Part shown: positions 17,444-25,489 of the stretch, one piece after another
Layout of the letters: every line of letters starts with the position of its first letter
How positions within the stretch are numbered: the first letter of the stretch is position 1
From: a virus
Reading direction: 5' to 3' (one strand)
Virus record (IMG/VR): IMGVR_UViG_3300025127_000233
Coordinates: 1 to 25,996 of that record
Length of the DNA stretch: 25,996 nucleotides
Translations under genes and position numbers: made by a program
The notes under the pieces: generated by a model
Told to the model about the DNA's origin: nothing
The model's database searches: none
What the model saw: only the letters and a program-made list of their open reading frames with translations

Positions 17444-18954
17444 CTTAATATCTCCTCAAACTCGTAAGGAGATGTAGAGGGAACAATGTATAAATTTTCC
17501 TTCGCTCTAGTCATACCGACATAAAAAACTCTTCTTTCATCATCTCTATTAACCCACATATTATCATTTATTCTTTTAGAAATATCAGAAAATAAAATTA
17601 CATTCTGGCTCTCTCCGCCTTTAGCTCCATGAATTGTAGAGAGTTTTATATTCGCCTCTTCATCTATGTCGTGTCCACTATTTAGTATATGCTTGATATA
17701 TAATTTATCCGACTCCGATATTCTACTGAGAGCTAACTCCCAAGGAGTTTCGACTAAAGTATTTAAGCCCCAGTCTTTTTTTAAATCAATGTAGCTATAT
17801 AGTCCCTCAAAGTCTGCTCCAGGCAAACCCTTCTTACCTCTAGAAACACCATTTTTGCCAACGGGCATAAACTGATACATGGCTTTCACATCTTCATAAG
17901 ATAGCTCTTGTTTATTTTGCAAACTAATCCAAGCTCTATAAGCTGTGGCAACGTCTTTGCTGATAGATAAATAATTATTTTTTTCAAATAGATAACCTTT
18001 GTTTTTTAATTCTTGTGCAACTTCATTTATATAATAATTTGTTCTGCCCAGAATTAACCACTGACCATGGCGTAAATCTATACTTTCAAAATTAGTGTTG
18101 CGCACTTGTCCTTCATCTTCTCTAGGTCGCCAAGTTTTATTTATTCTTTTATTTATTCTAGACACAAGGTTATTTGATTTTTCGAATATGGTTTTAGGTA
18201 TTCTATAAGATTGATCCAATACTTGCAAATGACTATCCAAGTCTATTAGTTTAGATACATCAGCACCACTCCAAGAATAAATAGCTTGATCGTCATCCCC
18301 AGCTAAAAACGATGCATGTGCCTGACGTATCATAACCATCACCATCTCCCACTCGTTTGGCTTCAAATCTTGTACCTCATCTACAATGACAAGCTCTAAC
18401 TTTGGAGACTGTGCGATACGATTAAATTCAGTTATTAAATCAGTGTAATCTTTTATTCCTCTTTTCTTTTTAAACATTCTGTAAGCTTTATCCACTCTTT
18501 GAAGTCTTGCAAGGCCCCCAACAACATGACCATATTTTTGAAACTCTTGTTCTAAGCTAGTGTTTTTAACTCTATATAAATCTATCAAAGACAAACCGGA
18601 GTCCTCTTCCCCCACGGCGACATCGTCTACTTTTATTGACTTAGATATGTCGACACCACATTCATTATAAAAATCTTTAAAATCTTGTCTTTGAATAATA
18701 TCTGTATGTGTGCACCCAAGCCATTGATAAGCTAAACTGTGTAGAGTTCTAAACCACTTCAAATCTTTTCGTGGCAACTTAAACAAAGAGCAAGCACGAT
18801 CTATCGCCTCTTGAGTTGCCTTCCTAGTAAAAGAAAAATAACCAATCCTATCAGGAGCCGTTCCACAACGTAAAGATTCCTCTACAATTTCTAATAATTT
18901 TGTAGTTTTGCCGGTGCCAGGGGGCCCTATTATTTTACAAACTTTTGTTAAAAT
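17440..18954 (-). CDS. UvrD/Rep-like superfamily 1 helicase, probable ATT start
   Basis: The complete product would be 504 residues. Motifs in order: Walker A GPPGTGKT (10-17), Ia SFTRKAT (41-47), RTLHSLAYQW (about 69-78), Walker B VIVDEVQD (189-196), III LAGDDDQAIYSWSGAD (217-232), V LSTIHGAKGGE, VI VFYVGMTRA. All are SF1A motifs. In this frame there is no ATG, GTG or TTG between an in-frame stop (18972-18970) and Walker A; the first conventional start is a TTG at 18786, which would delete Walker A and Ia. An ATT at 18954 stands seven bases after AGGAGG and overlaps the end of the primase gene, so I use it. It presumably unwinds DNA for the polymerase encoded next. A sequencing error or frameshift from the primase are alternatives. 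Confidence 0.88.
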   Translation of the reverse strand: MLTKVCKIIGPPGTGKTTKLLEIVEESLRCGTAPDRIGYFSFTRKATQEAIDRACSLFKLPRKDLKWFRTLHSLAYQWLGCTHTDIIQRQDFKDFYNECGVDISKSIKVDDVAVGEEDSGLSLIDLYRVKNTSLEQEFQKYGHVVGGLARLQRVDKAYRMFKKKRGIKDYTDLITEFNRIAQSPKLELVIVDEVQDLKPNEWEMVMVMIRQAHASFLAGDDDQAIYSWSGADVSKLIDLDSHLQVLDQSYRIPKTIFEKSNNLVSRINKRINKTWRPREDEGQVRNTNFESIDLRHGQWLILGRTNYYINEVAQELKNKGYLFEKNNYLSISKDVATAYRAWISLQNKQELSYEDVKAMYQFMPVGKNGVSRGKKGLPGADFEGLYSYIDLKKDWGLNTLVETPWELALSRISESDKLYIKHILNSGHDIDEEANIKLSTIHGAKGGESQNVILFSDISKRINDNMWVNRDDERRVFYVGMTRAKENLYIVPSTSPYEFEEILR

Positions 18955-20504
18955 GGTATCTCCTCCTCTTTATCTTGTTGTATTTCTACTTCCTGTTTGG
19001 TGATTATTTTATCACTGGGGATCCACCAAACTAATTGACCTTTCTTGTTATTTAATTTTCTCTTAGAATAATCACCGCCTAAGTTTCTTAAAAAGATTCC
19101 CATTTGATTTGATGTCAATGCACCATACCTTCTATTTCTCATGTACTCTTGCAGCTGATCCAAACGAAAGTATACCCTGCTTTCTTCATCGTCCACGAAA
19201 CACTGACCATTGAGAATATCATCAATGTCCAGAGCATTCGCTTGATTAGATATATATCTAGTAAGAATATTTCTAAACTCTCCCTCTGGTGTCATCTCAA
19301 ACTCTGATTTAACTTTTATAGCTTTCGACACAATAGTTGTTATGTACAAATCCCAGTCTTCTCTTTTCATAATCGAAGGCATTGAAGCTAATTTAACTAG
19401 ACACTTCTTTCTAAACTTGTGTTGATCGTATAGCTCTTCGATAGTGCAGACTATTGTTTGCTCATTGTTCACGGTCACATGATAAATCGTATCCTCGTTA
19501 TCTCCATACTGTATTACGTTCCCTACATCAGTGATTATGTTGCTATCGCCCACACCATACTTTCTAATTCTACATTTTGATTTATTACAAAAAGAACACA
19601 TGGGTTGGTCTTTACATTTATATCCCCAATCTTTTTTATCCGCCTGTCTAATAATTTTTTCTATTTCTTTTGGTTGTAAAGGGTCCTCAAAATATTTGTG
19701 ATGAAATTTGTGAACCTCTTTCTCAAAGTTTTCTCCAAATTTTTTCTTTGCATAAACAGAGTATTGAAAAAGAAAGTTGTCTCTGTTTCCTGGTTGAACT
19801 GTTTTGTTTTCTGTTAAATAAGCTTCGATGCAGTAAGGTGCATCAGTAAAATCTGAGTTTTCTTTTTTTAAAGATAATTTTTTTAATTCAATGTCTGTAA
19901 TAGATTTTTTTTCTACTTCTTTTAAAAATTCGTCTAGGTCTAAAATGTTTCCCTCGTCACTAAAAGCATATCGCTCTGTGTGGTTCAGTCCGTTGTGGTA
20001 AGGTAAGTTTAAAAAACTACCGACCTCCCAGTCTTTTGCATTACCCTCTCTTAATAATTTTTCTTGTTTTGGAAAAACTTCACAATGCCCAAGACCCATG
20101 AAAGCAGCTAACTCTTTTAATTTATTGTGAACAATCGCAGCAGAAACATAATCTTTAAAAAATAAAAATATATGTGCGCCACCACTTTTAGATTTTGTGA
20201 CTATAAACGGTAAATTTTTTTCTGATAATTTTTTTGCGATGGATACGTGATCGAGGGGATATTCATCGACATCAATACACCCCCACCGACACTTATCCTC
20301 GTCGTTGATTGGAAATACACCAAGACTAGGCCAAGCACCAGAAAGGTGATCGCTCCAAAGATTTTCATCTAATGGTTTCTTTCTTATCCAAGTTTCGCCC
20401 TCAGCTTTATTGTCTTCTCTGAGACTCTCTTTAGGTTGGAACGTACCATAAGCACGCTCCAAACCTAGAAAGATCTCTTTAAATTTAGAGACCCGTTGTT
20501 CCAT
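18948..20504 (-). CDS. Archaeo-eukaryotic-type (AEP) primase, phage form
   Basis: This 518-residue protein has AEP catalytic motifs: GCIDVDEY with Asp78 and Asp80, SKSGGAHIF with Ser107 and His111, and CEVFPKQ with Glu142 as the likely third acidic residue. FLNLPYHNG and the later GNRDNFLFQYSVYAKKK match the region after the catalytic core and the PriCT-like helical part of TOTE-type AEP primases. A four-cysteine site (Cys297, Cys303, Cys306, Cys311) probably binds zinc or an Fe-S cluster. The last residues, KEEEIPF, mimic the SSB acidic tip. It starts in a TAATG overlap with the SSB-like gene. It probably makes primers for PolA. Primase, and perhaps primase-polymerase, activity is inferred from family. 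Confidence 0.82.
   Translation of the reverse strand: MEQRVSKFKEIFLGLERAYGTFQPKESLREDNKAEGETWIRKKPLDENLWSDHLSGAWPSLGVFPINDEDKCRWGCIDVDEYPLDHVSIAKKLSEKNLPFIVTKSKSGGAHIFLFFKDYVSAAIVHNKLKELAAFMGLGHCEVFPKQEKLLREGNAKDWEVGSFLNLPYHNGLNHTERYAFSDEGNILDLDEFLKEVEKKSITDIELKKLSLKKENSDFTDAPYCIEAYLTENKTVQPGNRDNFLFQYSVYAKKKFGENFEKEVHKFHHKYFEDPLQPKEIEKIIRQADKKDWGYKCKDQPMCSFCNKSKCRIRKYGVGDSNIITDVGNVIQYGDNEDTIYHVTVNNEQTIVCTIEELYDQHKFRKKCLVKLASMPSIMKREDWDLYITTIVSKAIKVKSEFEMTPEGEFRNILTRYISNQANALDIDDILNGQCFVDDEESRVYFRLDQLQEYMRNRRYGALTSNQMGIFLRNLGGDYSKRKLNNKKGQLVWWIPSDKIITKQEVEIQQDKEEEIPF
18960..18967 (-). promoter_or_regulatory. Strong ribosome binding site deciding the helicase start
   Basis: AGGAGGAG lies within the last codons of the primase gene. 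Counted from AGGAGG, the ATT at 18954 follows seven bases later, while no standard start codon in the helicase frame lies within reach. A site this strong would be unexplained unless it serves the helicase. Confidence 0.65.
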
Positions 20505-23979: not shown

Positions 23980-24009
23980 TTGACAACGCAGTGGGAGTTC
24001 CTATATATT
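23980..24009 (+). promoter_or_regulatory. Early-type promoter for the small-gene cluster
   Basis: TTGACA (23980-23985), 13 bases, then TCCTATATA (23999-24007): the same layout as at 22457. A TATATT at 24004-24009 offers an alternative -10 with an 18-base spacer. The next ATG is at 24044, leaving a leader of about 30 bases with a GAAAGAGAAC ribosome binding region. Confidence 0.7.
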
Positions 24010-24043: not shown

Positions 24044-24268
24044 ATGGGTAAAGTAAACGCATACGCAAGAGATAAAGAAGACGAACTAGCAGATCTTTAC
24101 AATGAACTAGATGAGGCCAAAGCAGCTTTAGATAGAGCTAAAGAAATGCCAGGGTTCCAACAACTAACTAAGACTCATAGAGAAAGGGATTTTTCTTTGT
24201 TAGAATCTGAGATCAACGATTTTGTGAGTTTAGTTGATGATTACATGAGAGGGGATGAGCCTAAATGA
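24044..24268 (+). CDS. Small coiled-coil protein
   Basis: This 74-residue protein is strongly charged and helical. Residues about 9-36 (DKEDELADLYNELDEAKAAL) carry heptad-like hydrophobics typical of a coiled coil, followed by a second helix (LLESEINDFVSLVDDYM). It has no enzyme motif. It is the first gene after a strong early-type promoter, and its stop overlaps the start of the ribbon-helix-helix gene as ATGA, so the two are made together, perhaps as partners. The family is unknown. Confidence 0.7.
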   Translation: MGKVNAYARDKEDELADLYNELDEAKAALDRAKEMPGFQQLTKTHRERDFSLLESEINDFVSLVDDYMRGDEPK

Positions 24269-24426
24269 CAGACATTAAAAAATATAAATCAGTCATTGTA
24301 AGAGTAGAAACACATAGAAAGTTAAAAGAAATAGCTGGTGAAGATAGAAAAATATCTGGCATACTTTCTCAGTTAGTTGAGAAAGAGCATAAAGCCTGGA
24401 GTAAAAAAGTAGACAAGTTTCAGTAA
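24265..24426 (+). CDS. Ribbon-helix-helix-like small DNA-binding protein
   Basis: This 53-residue protein is coupled to the gene before it by an ATGA overlap. YKSVIVRV (about residues 7-14) would be the DNA-contacting strand, THRKLKEIAG helix A, and ISGILSQLVEKEHK helix B, with a short turn between (EDRK): the layout of Arc/CopG-type repressors, which dimerise through the strand and insert it in the major groove. It may regulate the phage's own promoters. The nearest inverted repeats are in the structured segment directly downstream and at 25541-25558. The assignment comes from pattern only, at modest confidence. Confidence 0.65.
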   Translation: MTDIKKYKSVIVRVETHRKLKEIAGEDRKISGILSQLVEKEHKAWSKKVDKFQ

Positions 24427-24470
24427 TGAGGAGGAGGCACCTACAAGATCTCCGCAGGTCTTTTTCATAA
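24426..24470 (+). CDS. Possible 14-residue Arg-rich leader peptide
   Basis: An ATG overlapping the ribbon-helix-helix stop (TAATG, the usual coupling junction here) opens a frame reading MRRRHLQDLRRSFS, with three successive AGG arginine codons. The frame runs through the 5' arm of the first hairpin and the small inner hairpin of the structured RNA segment, so a ribosome on it would change the folding. The GAGGAGG it contains could instead simply be part of a stem. It is speculative. Confidence 0.25.
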   Translation: MRRRHLQDLRRSFS

Positions 24471-24621
24471 TCATAATCATGGTGTCTCCTCTTGATTACT
24501 GATAGCGAGAATCAGTAATTATCTCTGAAGTCTACCTCCCAAACAGATGGATGAGATCTGTTTTAGCTCTCGCATGAACGGCTGAGGGGATTAAAATGCC
24601 ATTCCTCGCATCCCCTCGGCT
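24429..24621 (+). ncRNA. Candidate structured RNA: four hairpins with a possible pseudoknot
   Basis: Within a 210-base gap four strong stems follow one another. P1: 24431-24441 with 24481-24491, 11 pairs including one G-U. P2: 24495-24503 with 24511-24519, 9 perfect pairs, loop AGCGAGA. P3: 24541-24548 with 24556-24563, 8 perfect pairs, loop GGATGAG. P4: 24581-24591 with 24610-24620, 11 pairs including one G-U. The P2 loop GCGAGA (24505-24510) is exactly complementary to TCTCGC (24568-24573) between P3 and P4, allowing a pseudoknot around P3. P1 encloses a smaller stem (AAGATC/GGTCTT, 24445-24450 with 24457-24462) followed by five T. The segment looks richer in G+C than its surroundings. It matches no tRNA, tmRNA, RNase P or riboswitch I can recognise. 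It could be a trans-acting RNA or a leader of the 41-residue gene. Confidence 0.65.
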
Positions 24622-24636
24622 TAAGAAAGGATGGAG

Positions 24637-24762
24637 ATGTACAAGTTAGAATACGAACTAGATTTAAAAGAGTTATCTATAGAAGAACTAAAAAATTTAC
24701 AAGAGGATATAAAAAAAGAACTTGATCGTAGAACTGTAAAAGTTGTTGATAAAACAGAATAA
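24637..24762 (+). CDS. 41-residue peptide following the structured RNA
   Basis: The frame reads MYKLEYELDLKELSIEELKN then LQEDIKKELDRRTVKVVDKTE, a regular amphipathic helix with alternating Lys/Glu. I choose the ATG at 24637, six bases after AAGG; an ATG at 24631 is in frame but lacks spacing. The codon pattern and strong helix periodicity suggest it is a real gene rather than chance. It would be controlled by whatever the structured segment upstream does. Its function is unknown; a helical anti-host or adaptor peptide is possible. Confidence 0.6.
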   Translation: MYKLEYELDLKELSIEELKNLQEDIKKELDRRTVKVVDKTE

Positions 24763-24782
24763 AAAAGGGGGCCGAAGCCCCC
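24761..24782 (-). terminator. Rho-independent terminator with UUCG loop (minus strand)
   Basis: On the minus strand GGGGGC, loop TTCG and GCCCCC (24782-24767) are followed by six T (24766-24761): a textbook intrinsic terminator with the very stable UUCG tetraloop. It lies eight bases after the minus-strand gene at 24791-25033. On the plus strand the hairpin is followed only by TGATTTGATT, so termination of the 41-residue gene would be weaker. Confidence 0.9.
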
Positions 24783-24790
24783 TGATTTGA

Positions 24791-25033
24791 TTAGTTATCT
24801 TTTCTACAGTTGTCTTCATAAATGAAGTCATGTGTAGACATTTGATGAGTGGCTCTATATCCGGACTTATGAGGAACGTCGGGGTTGTCCCACCATTCCA
24901 AAATAGTCAGGGTATATAAAAAACCACCTTCGCCGTCGTCACATTTTTGAACTTGGACTACTTGTTTCTTGTCAATGTTTTTGACCCAGTTAGTCAAGTT
25001 CTCAGTTTCTTCGGTTAGAAAGTATCTTGCCAT
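24791..25033 (-). CDS. Small protein of unknown function, own promoter and terminator
   Basis: This 80-residue protein starts at the ATG (25033) preceded by AAAGGAG; a longer frame (25087) would run through the promoter, so it is rejected. It reads MARYFLTEETENLTNWVKNI, then KKQVVQVQKCDDGEGGFLYT, LTILEWWDNPDVP, and an acidic, two-cysteine tail. Beta strands dominate the centre. It stands alone between a consensus promoter and a UUCG terminator, which suggests high, independent expression early after infection, as with phage genes that target host functions; that role is inference. No family is recognised. Confidence 0.75.
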   Translation of the reverse strand: MARYFLTEETENLTNWVKNIDKKQVVQVQKCDDGEGGFLYTLTILEWWDNPDVPHKSGYRATHQMSTHDFIYEDNCRKDN

Positions 25034-25058
25034 TCCCTGTTTCTCCTTTCTGCCACCC

Positions 25059-25087
25059 ATTATATAGGATATATCCCATAAAGTCAA
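25059..25087 (-). promoter_or_regulatory. Strong sigma-70 type promoter (minus strand)
   Basis: TTGACT (25087-25082), a 17-base spacer and a perfect TATAAT (25064-25059). It also contains TCCTATATA (25069-25061), shared with the promoters at 22457 and 23980. It drives the gene starting at 25033, with a leader of roughly 20 bases carrying AAAGGAG. Confidence 0.85.
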
Positions 25088-25207
25088 TTGGACAAAGTGT
25101 CGCAGGTAAAAGTTGGAAAATTGTCCTCAACTTAGGGGATAACTTTCCATAAATTAAAACTTGACTTTTTAATATCATTTTATCCAAAAAATCTATATAA
25201 ATATCCA

Positions 25208-25250
25208 TAAGAGCGGGAGTGTTTACCCTGTTTCGATTCTCCCGCTTTTA
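25208..25250 (+). promoter_or_regulatory. Leader hairpin directly before a ribosome binding site
   Basis: AGCGGGAG (25212-25219) pairs perfectly with CTCCCGCT (25239-25246), extended by four more pairs (one G-U) to 25208 and 25250: 12 pairs around a 19-base loop. The 3' side runs into TTTTA, and AAAGGA (25252-25257) for the ATG at 25265 begins two bases later. It could act as an attenuator, a translational operator or an mRNA-stabilising 5' hairpin. A TATATAA at 25194-25200 is a possible -10 with no good -35. Confidence 0.6.
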
Positions 25251-25264
25251 CAAAGGACAACGCT

Positions 25265-25489
25265 ATGTTGAACGATATAAAAACAAAAATCGTGCTAGCT
25301 GTCCAACGACAGCAAGTCTACGATCCAGTGTTGAAAGACACGGTAGGTAAAGTCTTAGTGACTTTTGCTGATGGAATGGTGAACGGTTATCTCGAAGAAG
25401 ATTGGGATAACATGATGGAACAAGTAGATTCTATGCTCGAAAAGGCTTTTATTGTAGAGCCTAGAGCTTTCCAACCTCAGCTGGATTGA
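25265..25489 (+). CDS. Small protein of unknown function downstream of a leader hairpin
   Basis: This 74-residue protein has AAAGGA seven bases before the ATG. It begins with an amphipathic segment (MLNDIKTKIVLAVQRQQVYD), then a beta-like VGKVLVTFADGMVNGYL and an acidic helix (EEDWDNMMEQVDSMLEKAF). No cysteines, signal peptide or enzyme motif are seen. It is probably an early gene with post-transcriptional control by the hairpin in its leader. Its last 13 bases overlap the 3' end of the convergent gene at 25477-25656. The family is unknown. Confidence 0.65.
   Translation: MLNDIKTKIVLAVQRQQVYDPVLKDTVGKVLVTFADGMVNGYLEEDWDNMMEQVDSMLEKAFIVEPRAFQPQLD

Follow-up and report, generated by a model that had tools for sequence, protein, structure and literature searches.

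A conserved structured RNA of about 200 nt with two competing helices in a group of uncultured marine phages

The virus record IMGVR_UViG_3300025127_000233 (25,996 bases; the window analysed here is positions 1-25,996) contains a spacer between two small ORFs in which four consecutive stems had been predicted from the sequence, raising the question of whether it encodes a functional RNA and what such an RNA might do. The window helicase is closest to those of phages DSL-LC04 (54.6% identity) and 023Pt_psg01 (54.0%), followed by the pelagiphages HTVC027P (50.6%) and HTVC023P (46.9%). Elsewhere in the window, a minus-strand gene (18948-20504) encodes a primase whose archaeo-eukaryotic primase domain is of the AEP-TOTE type. 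The spacer and its flanks are arranged as follows:

24265-24426, + strand, upstream ORF for a ribbon-helix-helix (RHH) protein, Arc-like at weak score
24421-24621, + strand, conserved structured RNA of about 200 nt, reaching slightly beyond the bounds first proposed
24637-24762, ORF of 41 aa

The four stems, and the complementarity between 24505-24510 and 24568-24573, were present as described in the original prediction. The plus strand of 24420-24630 folds at -77.1 kcal/mol, compared with -52.7 ± 4.6 kcal/mol for dinucleotide shuffles (z -5.4, reached by 0/200), in a calculation that leaves out pseudoknots and tertiary contacts; the minus strand of the spacer gave a z of only -2.2. A search with the RHH protein as the first query, followed by conserved pieces of the RNA, identified homologues in 50 other IMG/VR contigs from marine, uncultured phages, with one copy each. 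A covariance model built from 32 distinct members gave exactly one match per contig, at 107-167 bits. In a MAFFT alignment, the whole structure exceeded all 500 shuffles in cells paired, in doubly changed pairs and cells and in covariation score, and also exceeded every slid control; the 500 shuffles were not exceeded in the number of further pair types.

The first stem, P1, consists of the following parts:

24421-24441, + strand, 5' strand, the first 7 nt of which (CAGUAAU) form the outer base
24442-24480, + strand, apical segment, with an inner hairpin (24445-24451 with 24456-24462)
24481-24501, + strand, 3' strand, in which AUUACUG (24495-24501) is common to P2

P1 had been predicted as a stem of 11 pairs; the stem is there, but it has about 20 pairs (24421-24441 with 24481-24501), and in the window exactly 20, with a G.G mismatch at 24428. 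Across the 32 distinct sequences P1 is 98.8% paired, and 7 of 19 pairs are doubly compensated. Its arms align without gaps from the anchors CAGTAAT and ATTACTG, so no fitting enters into the pairing. Each of the 29 distinct arm pairs forms a helix of ~20 bp, and when arms were swapped among members the pairing fell, with 0/5000 permutations reaching the observed value. Pair 14 switches between A-U and G-C at least five times on the helicase tree, a count that recombination may inflate. Variation is slight in the outer P1 base and in most of P2, and their support is therefore mainly constancy together with G-U changes. Different P1 tips occur in the window and in contig L093, which encode identical helicases, so the tips appear to be exchanged by recombination. 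Seven contigs (L138, L140, L135, L137, L122, L133 and L062) carry a tip of ~100 nt in place of the short one, with the conserved bases GGAAAGGU ... UUGCAAA ... GUCUCUUGCAAA.

P1 contains 43 G-U pairs against a single A-C mismatch, which identifies the plus-strand RNA as the selected molecule. The apical segment is highly variable, from 0 to ~110 nt across homologues, and the core contains 1-nt indels; the gap is thus not coding. The homologue alignment that had been proposed as a check on the prediction accordingly showed stem arms changing with compensation, and frame-breaking indels as opposed to a coding region. P1 and P4 are palindromic at the DNA level too, and the reverse strand scores weakly with the covariance model, as might be expected of a DNA palindrome. 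A coding sequence, a DNA palindrome or a chance structure is nevertheless extremely improbable, and is already contradicted by the indels, the covariation, the strand-asymmetric G-U pairs and the folding z-score. The spacer almost certainly encodes a conserved functional structured RNA, absent from Rfam and with compensatory changes in its stems, and to this extent the original prediction is supported.

The remainder of the RNA combines stems of differing variability with long invariant segments:

24495-24519, + strand, P2, 9 bp (24495-24503 with 24511-24519)
24504-24510, + strand, P2 heptaloop AGCGAGA, of which 24505-24510 pairs with 24568-24573
24530-24542, + strand, GUCUACCUCCCAA, unpaired and invariant in 32/32 distinct sequences
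24541-24563, + strand, P3, 8 bp (24541-24548 with 24556-24563), with the invariant loop GGAUGAG
24568-24573, + strand, UCUCGC, partner of the P2 loop, with the invariant core CUCGCA
24580-24621, + strand, P4, 12 bp here (24580-24591 with 24610-24621)

All cells of P2 pair in the 32 distinct sequences; three positions vary by G-U only, and the closing pair U24503-A24511 is U-A in 27 and C-G in 5, providing one compensatory pair. Five pairs of the GCGAGA:UCUCGC helix are invariant and the sixth is lost in 5 members, a near-invariance with which covariation neither supports nor refutes the helix. P3 is a real hairpin around the invariant GGAUGAGA, with some double changes; groups differ in its register (the alternatives were identified by eye in the alignment), and column-wise pairing is therefore just 74%. 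P4, normally starting 5 nt past CUCGCA, is very variable in sequence and keeps its pairing, forming a long hairpin wherever the region is complete. GUCUACCUCCCAA, GGAUGAGA and CUCGCA are invariant across the aligned members. GUCUACCUCCCAA contains ACCUCC, resembling the 16S anti-Shine-Dalgarno sequence.

The strand AUUACUG at 24495-24501 complements both the 5' CAGUAAU and a second CAGUAAU at 24513-24519 (within UCAGUAAU), and no complete member examined has lost either complementarity. Because this middle strand is common to both helices, the base of P1 and P2 are mutually exclusive, and the conservation of both complementarities points to a bistable RNA. A three-strand arrangement of this kind arose in 6 of 5000 dinucleotide shuffles. 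In energy calculations without pseudoknot terms, full P1 without P2 was the ground state in 38/38 members, with a margin of 1.2 to 13.3 kcal/mol; when the first 12 nt were masked, P2 appeared in 34/38. The model first proposed for this RNA corresponds to the second state, with P2. In the predicted ground state GCGAGA:UCUCGC is an ordinary helix, and it is formation of P2 that turns it into a pseudoknot, so the pseudoknot of the original prediction holds as one of two conserved, exclusive arrangements and not as the predicted ground state. Taken together, these data suggest that the RNA is probably bistable by design.

We examined the genomic setting of the RNA. Its place is fixed: it always has the helicase gene on one side and, on the other, a conserved gene of 74 aa (gene 0, MLNDIKTKI...), which occurs 3' of the RNA in the same contigs. 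The RNA is present at all model-scanned gene-0 loci that extend far enough upstream; at the loci lacking a match, the contig starts within about 325 bases of gene 0. The covariance model found no match in the more distant RHH loci tested or in the full genomes of the four nearest isolate phages, and DNA similar to the element was not found among 50,697 phage records. A pattern scan of 84,980 prokaryote genomes gave 7 matches, judged by eye to be chance and none of them real. Looser pattern-scan matches in viral contigs (e.g. L103-L104, L106-L121, L141-L169) were likewise rejected as chance. The literature searched on pelagiphages does not report this RNA.

Features bearing on its transcription are:

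23980-24009, + strand, candidate sigma-70 promoter (11/12 matches)
24766-24783, no strand assigned, candidate terminator with a better U-tract for a minus-strand gene
25265-25489, gene 0, 74 aa, 50/74 columns invariant over seven divergent members

The promoter and terminator together would place the RNA on a transcript of roughly 760 nt, which is also predicted to carry two small genes 5' of the RNA and one 3'. The RNA would be made from the plus strand, within this predicted short early transcript. Other members have a different downstream gene or lack one, with the gene-0 promoter coming directly afterwards. Gene 0 matches nothing in Pfam and PHROGs only marginally, and within the collection searched it is confined to this phage group. 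In the members examined it is preceded by a highly conserved promoter-like block, TTGACTTTTTAATATC...TATATAAAT, and a leader hairpin, GAGCGGGAG..CUCCCGCUUUU (25161-25264 in the window, z -3.6). The CUCCCGC arm of this hairpin resembles CUCUCGC in the RNA. A minus-strand gene of 98 aa (24791-25087) lies between the RNA unit and gene 0, and among the members compared is present only in the window, L076 and L089; the start region of this gene shows strong complementarity to the invariant segment of the RNA (-18.1 kcal/mol). Some members contain a second, unrelated structured spacer 3' of the RNA, with a ACCCGUCCGUGAACAGCGGGUG hairpin and a long outer stem (L068:498-640, - strand, z -6.1; a differently cut piece from L006 gave z -0.1), and its core occurs in 11 contigs (L068, L071, L074, L081, L082, L085, L096, L097, L237-L239).

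Although the place of the RNA is fixed, its 5' neighbour is not. The upstream ORFs encode RHH proteins, proteins of cluster 16 or other small proteins, comprising at least three families. One earlier suggestion, that the RNA is an autoregulatory target of the RHH protein, does not agree with this observation, since many members have a non-RHH gene upstream of an unchanged RNA. This independence from any one neighbour speaks against RHH autoregulation, and also against the RNA being a 5' UTR switch dedicated to a single gene. What recurs is the position of the stop codon. In the window, the RHH ORF ends with CAG UAA within the 5' strand of P1 (UAA at 24424-24426). The stop is formed by CAG UAA inside the CAGUAAU strand in 30/43 members and lies at the first base of the strand in 2/43, thus overlapping the 5' strand of P1 in 32/43; in the other 11/43 it lies 7-11 nt before the strand, where a terminating ribosome would cover the strand just partly. 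A ribosome terminating at these stops would cover the strand in whole or in part, which suggests that termination gates the switch. Tight packing and the exclusion of ribosomes from the RNA could account for the stop position with no sensing, and the exclusion of ribosomes is the simpler reading.

From the competing helices and the stop overlap we infer, tentatively, a ribosome-gated conformational switch, the reading we favour while rating it somewhat below an even chance. In the free transcript, the 5' strand CAGUAAU would close the 20-bp P1. If this strand were removed, AUUACUG would pair with UCAGUAAU to form P2, the loop of which would dock on UCUCGC, giving a pseudoknot that encloses P3 and the invariant segment GUCUACCUCCC. 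The agent of removal would most likely be a ribosome terminating at the stop inside or just before the CAGUAAU strand; cleavage of P1 is an alternative trigger. Were a terminating ribosome to take the strand, the RNA would report translation of the upstream gene. Candidate outputs are a change in the stability of the carrying transcript, its cleavage by RNase III, or the freeing of invariant unpaired segments to bind a partner. Against the switch, P4 is not followed by a U-tract and masks no start site, and the downstream gene is not conserved. A broader proposal seems rather unlikely: that the RNA represents a new class of switch monitoring translation termination of any upstream gene, with the stop codon built into its own first strand, and that its P1 and P4 tips are exchangeable, carrying a portable loop motif that can compete for the loop of P2. 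This motif is located in the window at:

24449-24456, + strand, loop motif UCUCCGCA, in the P1 tip of most members and in the P4 loop of others

Of 36 members, 34 carry a pyrimidine-rich loop ending in GCA (UCUCCGCA or a variant of it) at the tip of P1 or in the loop of P4, against an expectation of 0.09 from shuffled loops that is uncorrected for the kinship of the 36 members. Many of these loops look, on inspection, able to pair with that of P2.

The same motif, moving between P1 and P4, is also consistent with a processed, trans-acting small RNA. According to this explanation, RNase III or another nuclease would cut the 20-bp P1, which is long enough for RNase III, and the product would refold into P2, the pseudoknot, P3 and P4, and act on other RNAs or a protein via the invariant unpaired GUCUACCUCCCAA and UCUCCGCA. 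A fixed genome position with varying neighbours on both sides is reminiscent of a free-standing RNA, and the unpaired motifs are invariant while the stems vary. However, a promoter of its own was not seen upstream, and the stop codon inside the RNA is left unexplained. Duplex energies to the ribosome-binding sites of the window gave scattered matches with no conserved target, and no such antisense target falls within any gene whose conservation with the RNA is established. We regard this explanation as possible, on the unlikely side.

The transcript setting, with the RNA between promoter and terminator, strong hairpins at both of its ends and P4 near the next ribosome-binding site in many members, would also suit a passive cis element, one that protects or separates cistrons, or tunes translation of the next gene, as a stable structure in a 3' or intergenic position and with no conformational switch. 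The downstream gene, however, is of several kinds or absent. A barrier, moreover, does not need long invariant loops, and a passive element is in our judgement unlikely.

Still less probable, and to be considered very unlikely, is a signal for another machine, such as a put-like antitermination RNA, a packaging RNA or a replication origin. The RNA is structured, single copy and in the early region; a conserved promoter and hairpin leader follow 144-684 nt past the end of the RNA model, and several relatives have a candidate small terminase gene a few kb downstream. Its location near the end of a transcript, where the nearest promoter is about 440 nt away and the terminator follows after only ~150 nt, argues against antitermination, the G-U bias speaks against a DNA signal, and no result points to packaging or origin roles.

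Structured RNAs of ~200 nt are uncommon in small phage genomes, and whichever reading holds, the present RNA constitutes a well-defined new family with a covariation-supported, directly testable model. It is outside every Rfam family tested. At gathering thresholds, no family of Rfam 15 matched, riboswitches and ribozymes included, and ARAGORN gave no match either, in agreement with the earlier statement that no tRNA, tmRNA or riboswitch class fits. A permissive Rfam search returned a partial match to RF02926 (DUF2693-FD) covering a hairpin alone, at 18.3 bits against a gathering cut-off of 44.5 bits, and only model positions 25-42 of 49. The likeness is confined to a hairpin of 18 nt, in which both the U-A closing pair and the heptaloop AGCGAGA are identical; the match excludes P1, P3, P4 and the UCUCGC partner, and in the record tested it was not obtained for members with the C-G closing pair. 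RF02926 has a closing stem and a second hairpin, with two hairpins on a central loop (PMC9756865), and the match to the phage RNA, limited to model positions 25-42, does not take in the closing stem plus second hairpin. We treat the common AGCGAGA hairpin as a lead only.

GOLLD and ROOL, like the RNA described here, are ornate structured phage RNAs with no assigned function, but they are several times longer than ~200 nt, and no Rfam model of either matched. Both are large RNAs of phages or prophages, and are among those shown to form oligomers (PMC12286853). HK022 put is a cis-acting structured phage RNA of the early region (PMC9378689). The present RNA resembles it in being a phage-encoded structured RNA in cis in the early region; put, however, acts on the polymerase of an early operon, whereas the present RNA lies towards the end of a short predicted transcript and is built differently. 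Ribosome-mediated attenuators and leader-ORF switches of the trp and erm type use mutually exclusive helices, with the stop codon of an ORF inside or next to one of the strands. The phage RNA has the same two properties, mutually exclusive helices and a strand at the ORF stop. It differs in that no terminator or sequestered start site was found as an output, and in that the ORF is not a leader peptide but an ordinary gene of changing identity. If the stop-codon-gated switch is true, the phage would read the translation of such an ordinary gene in place of a leader peptide.
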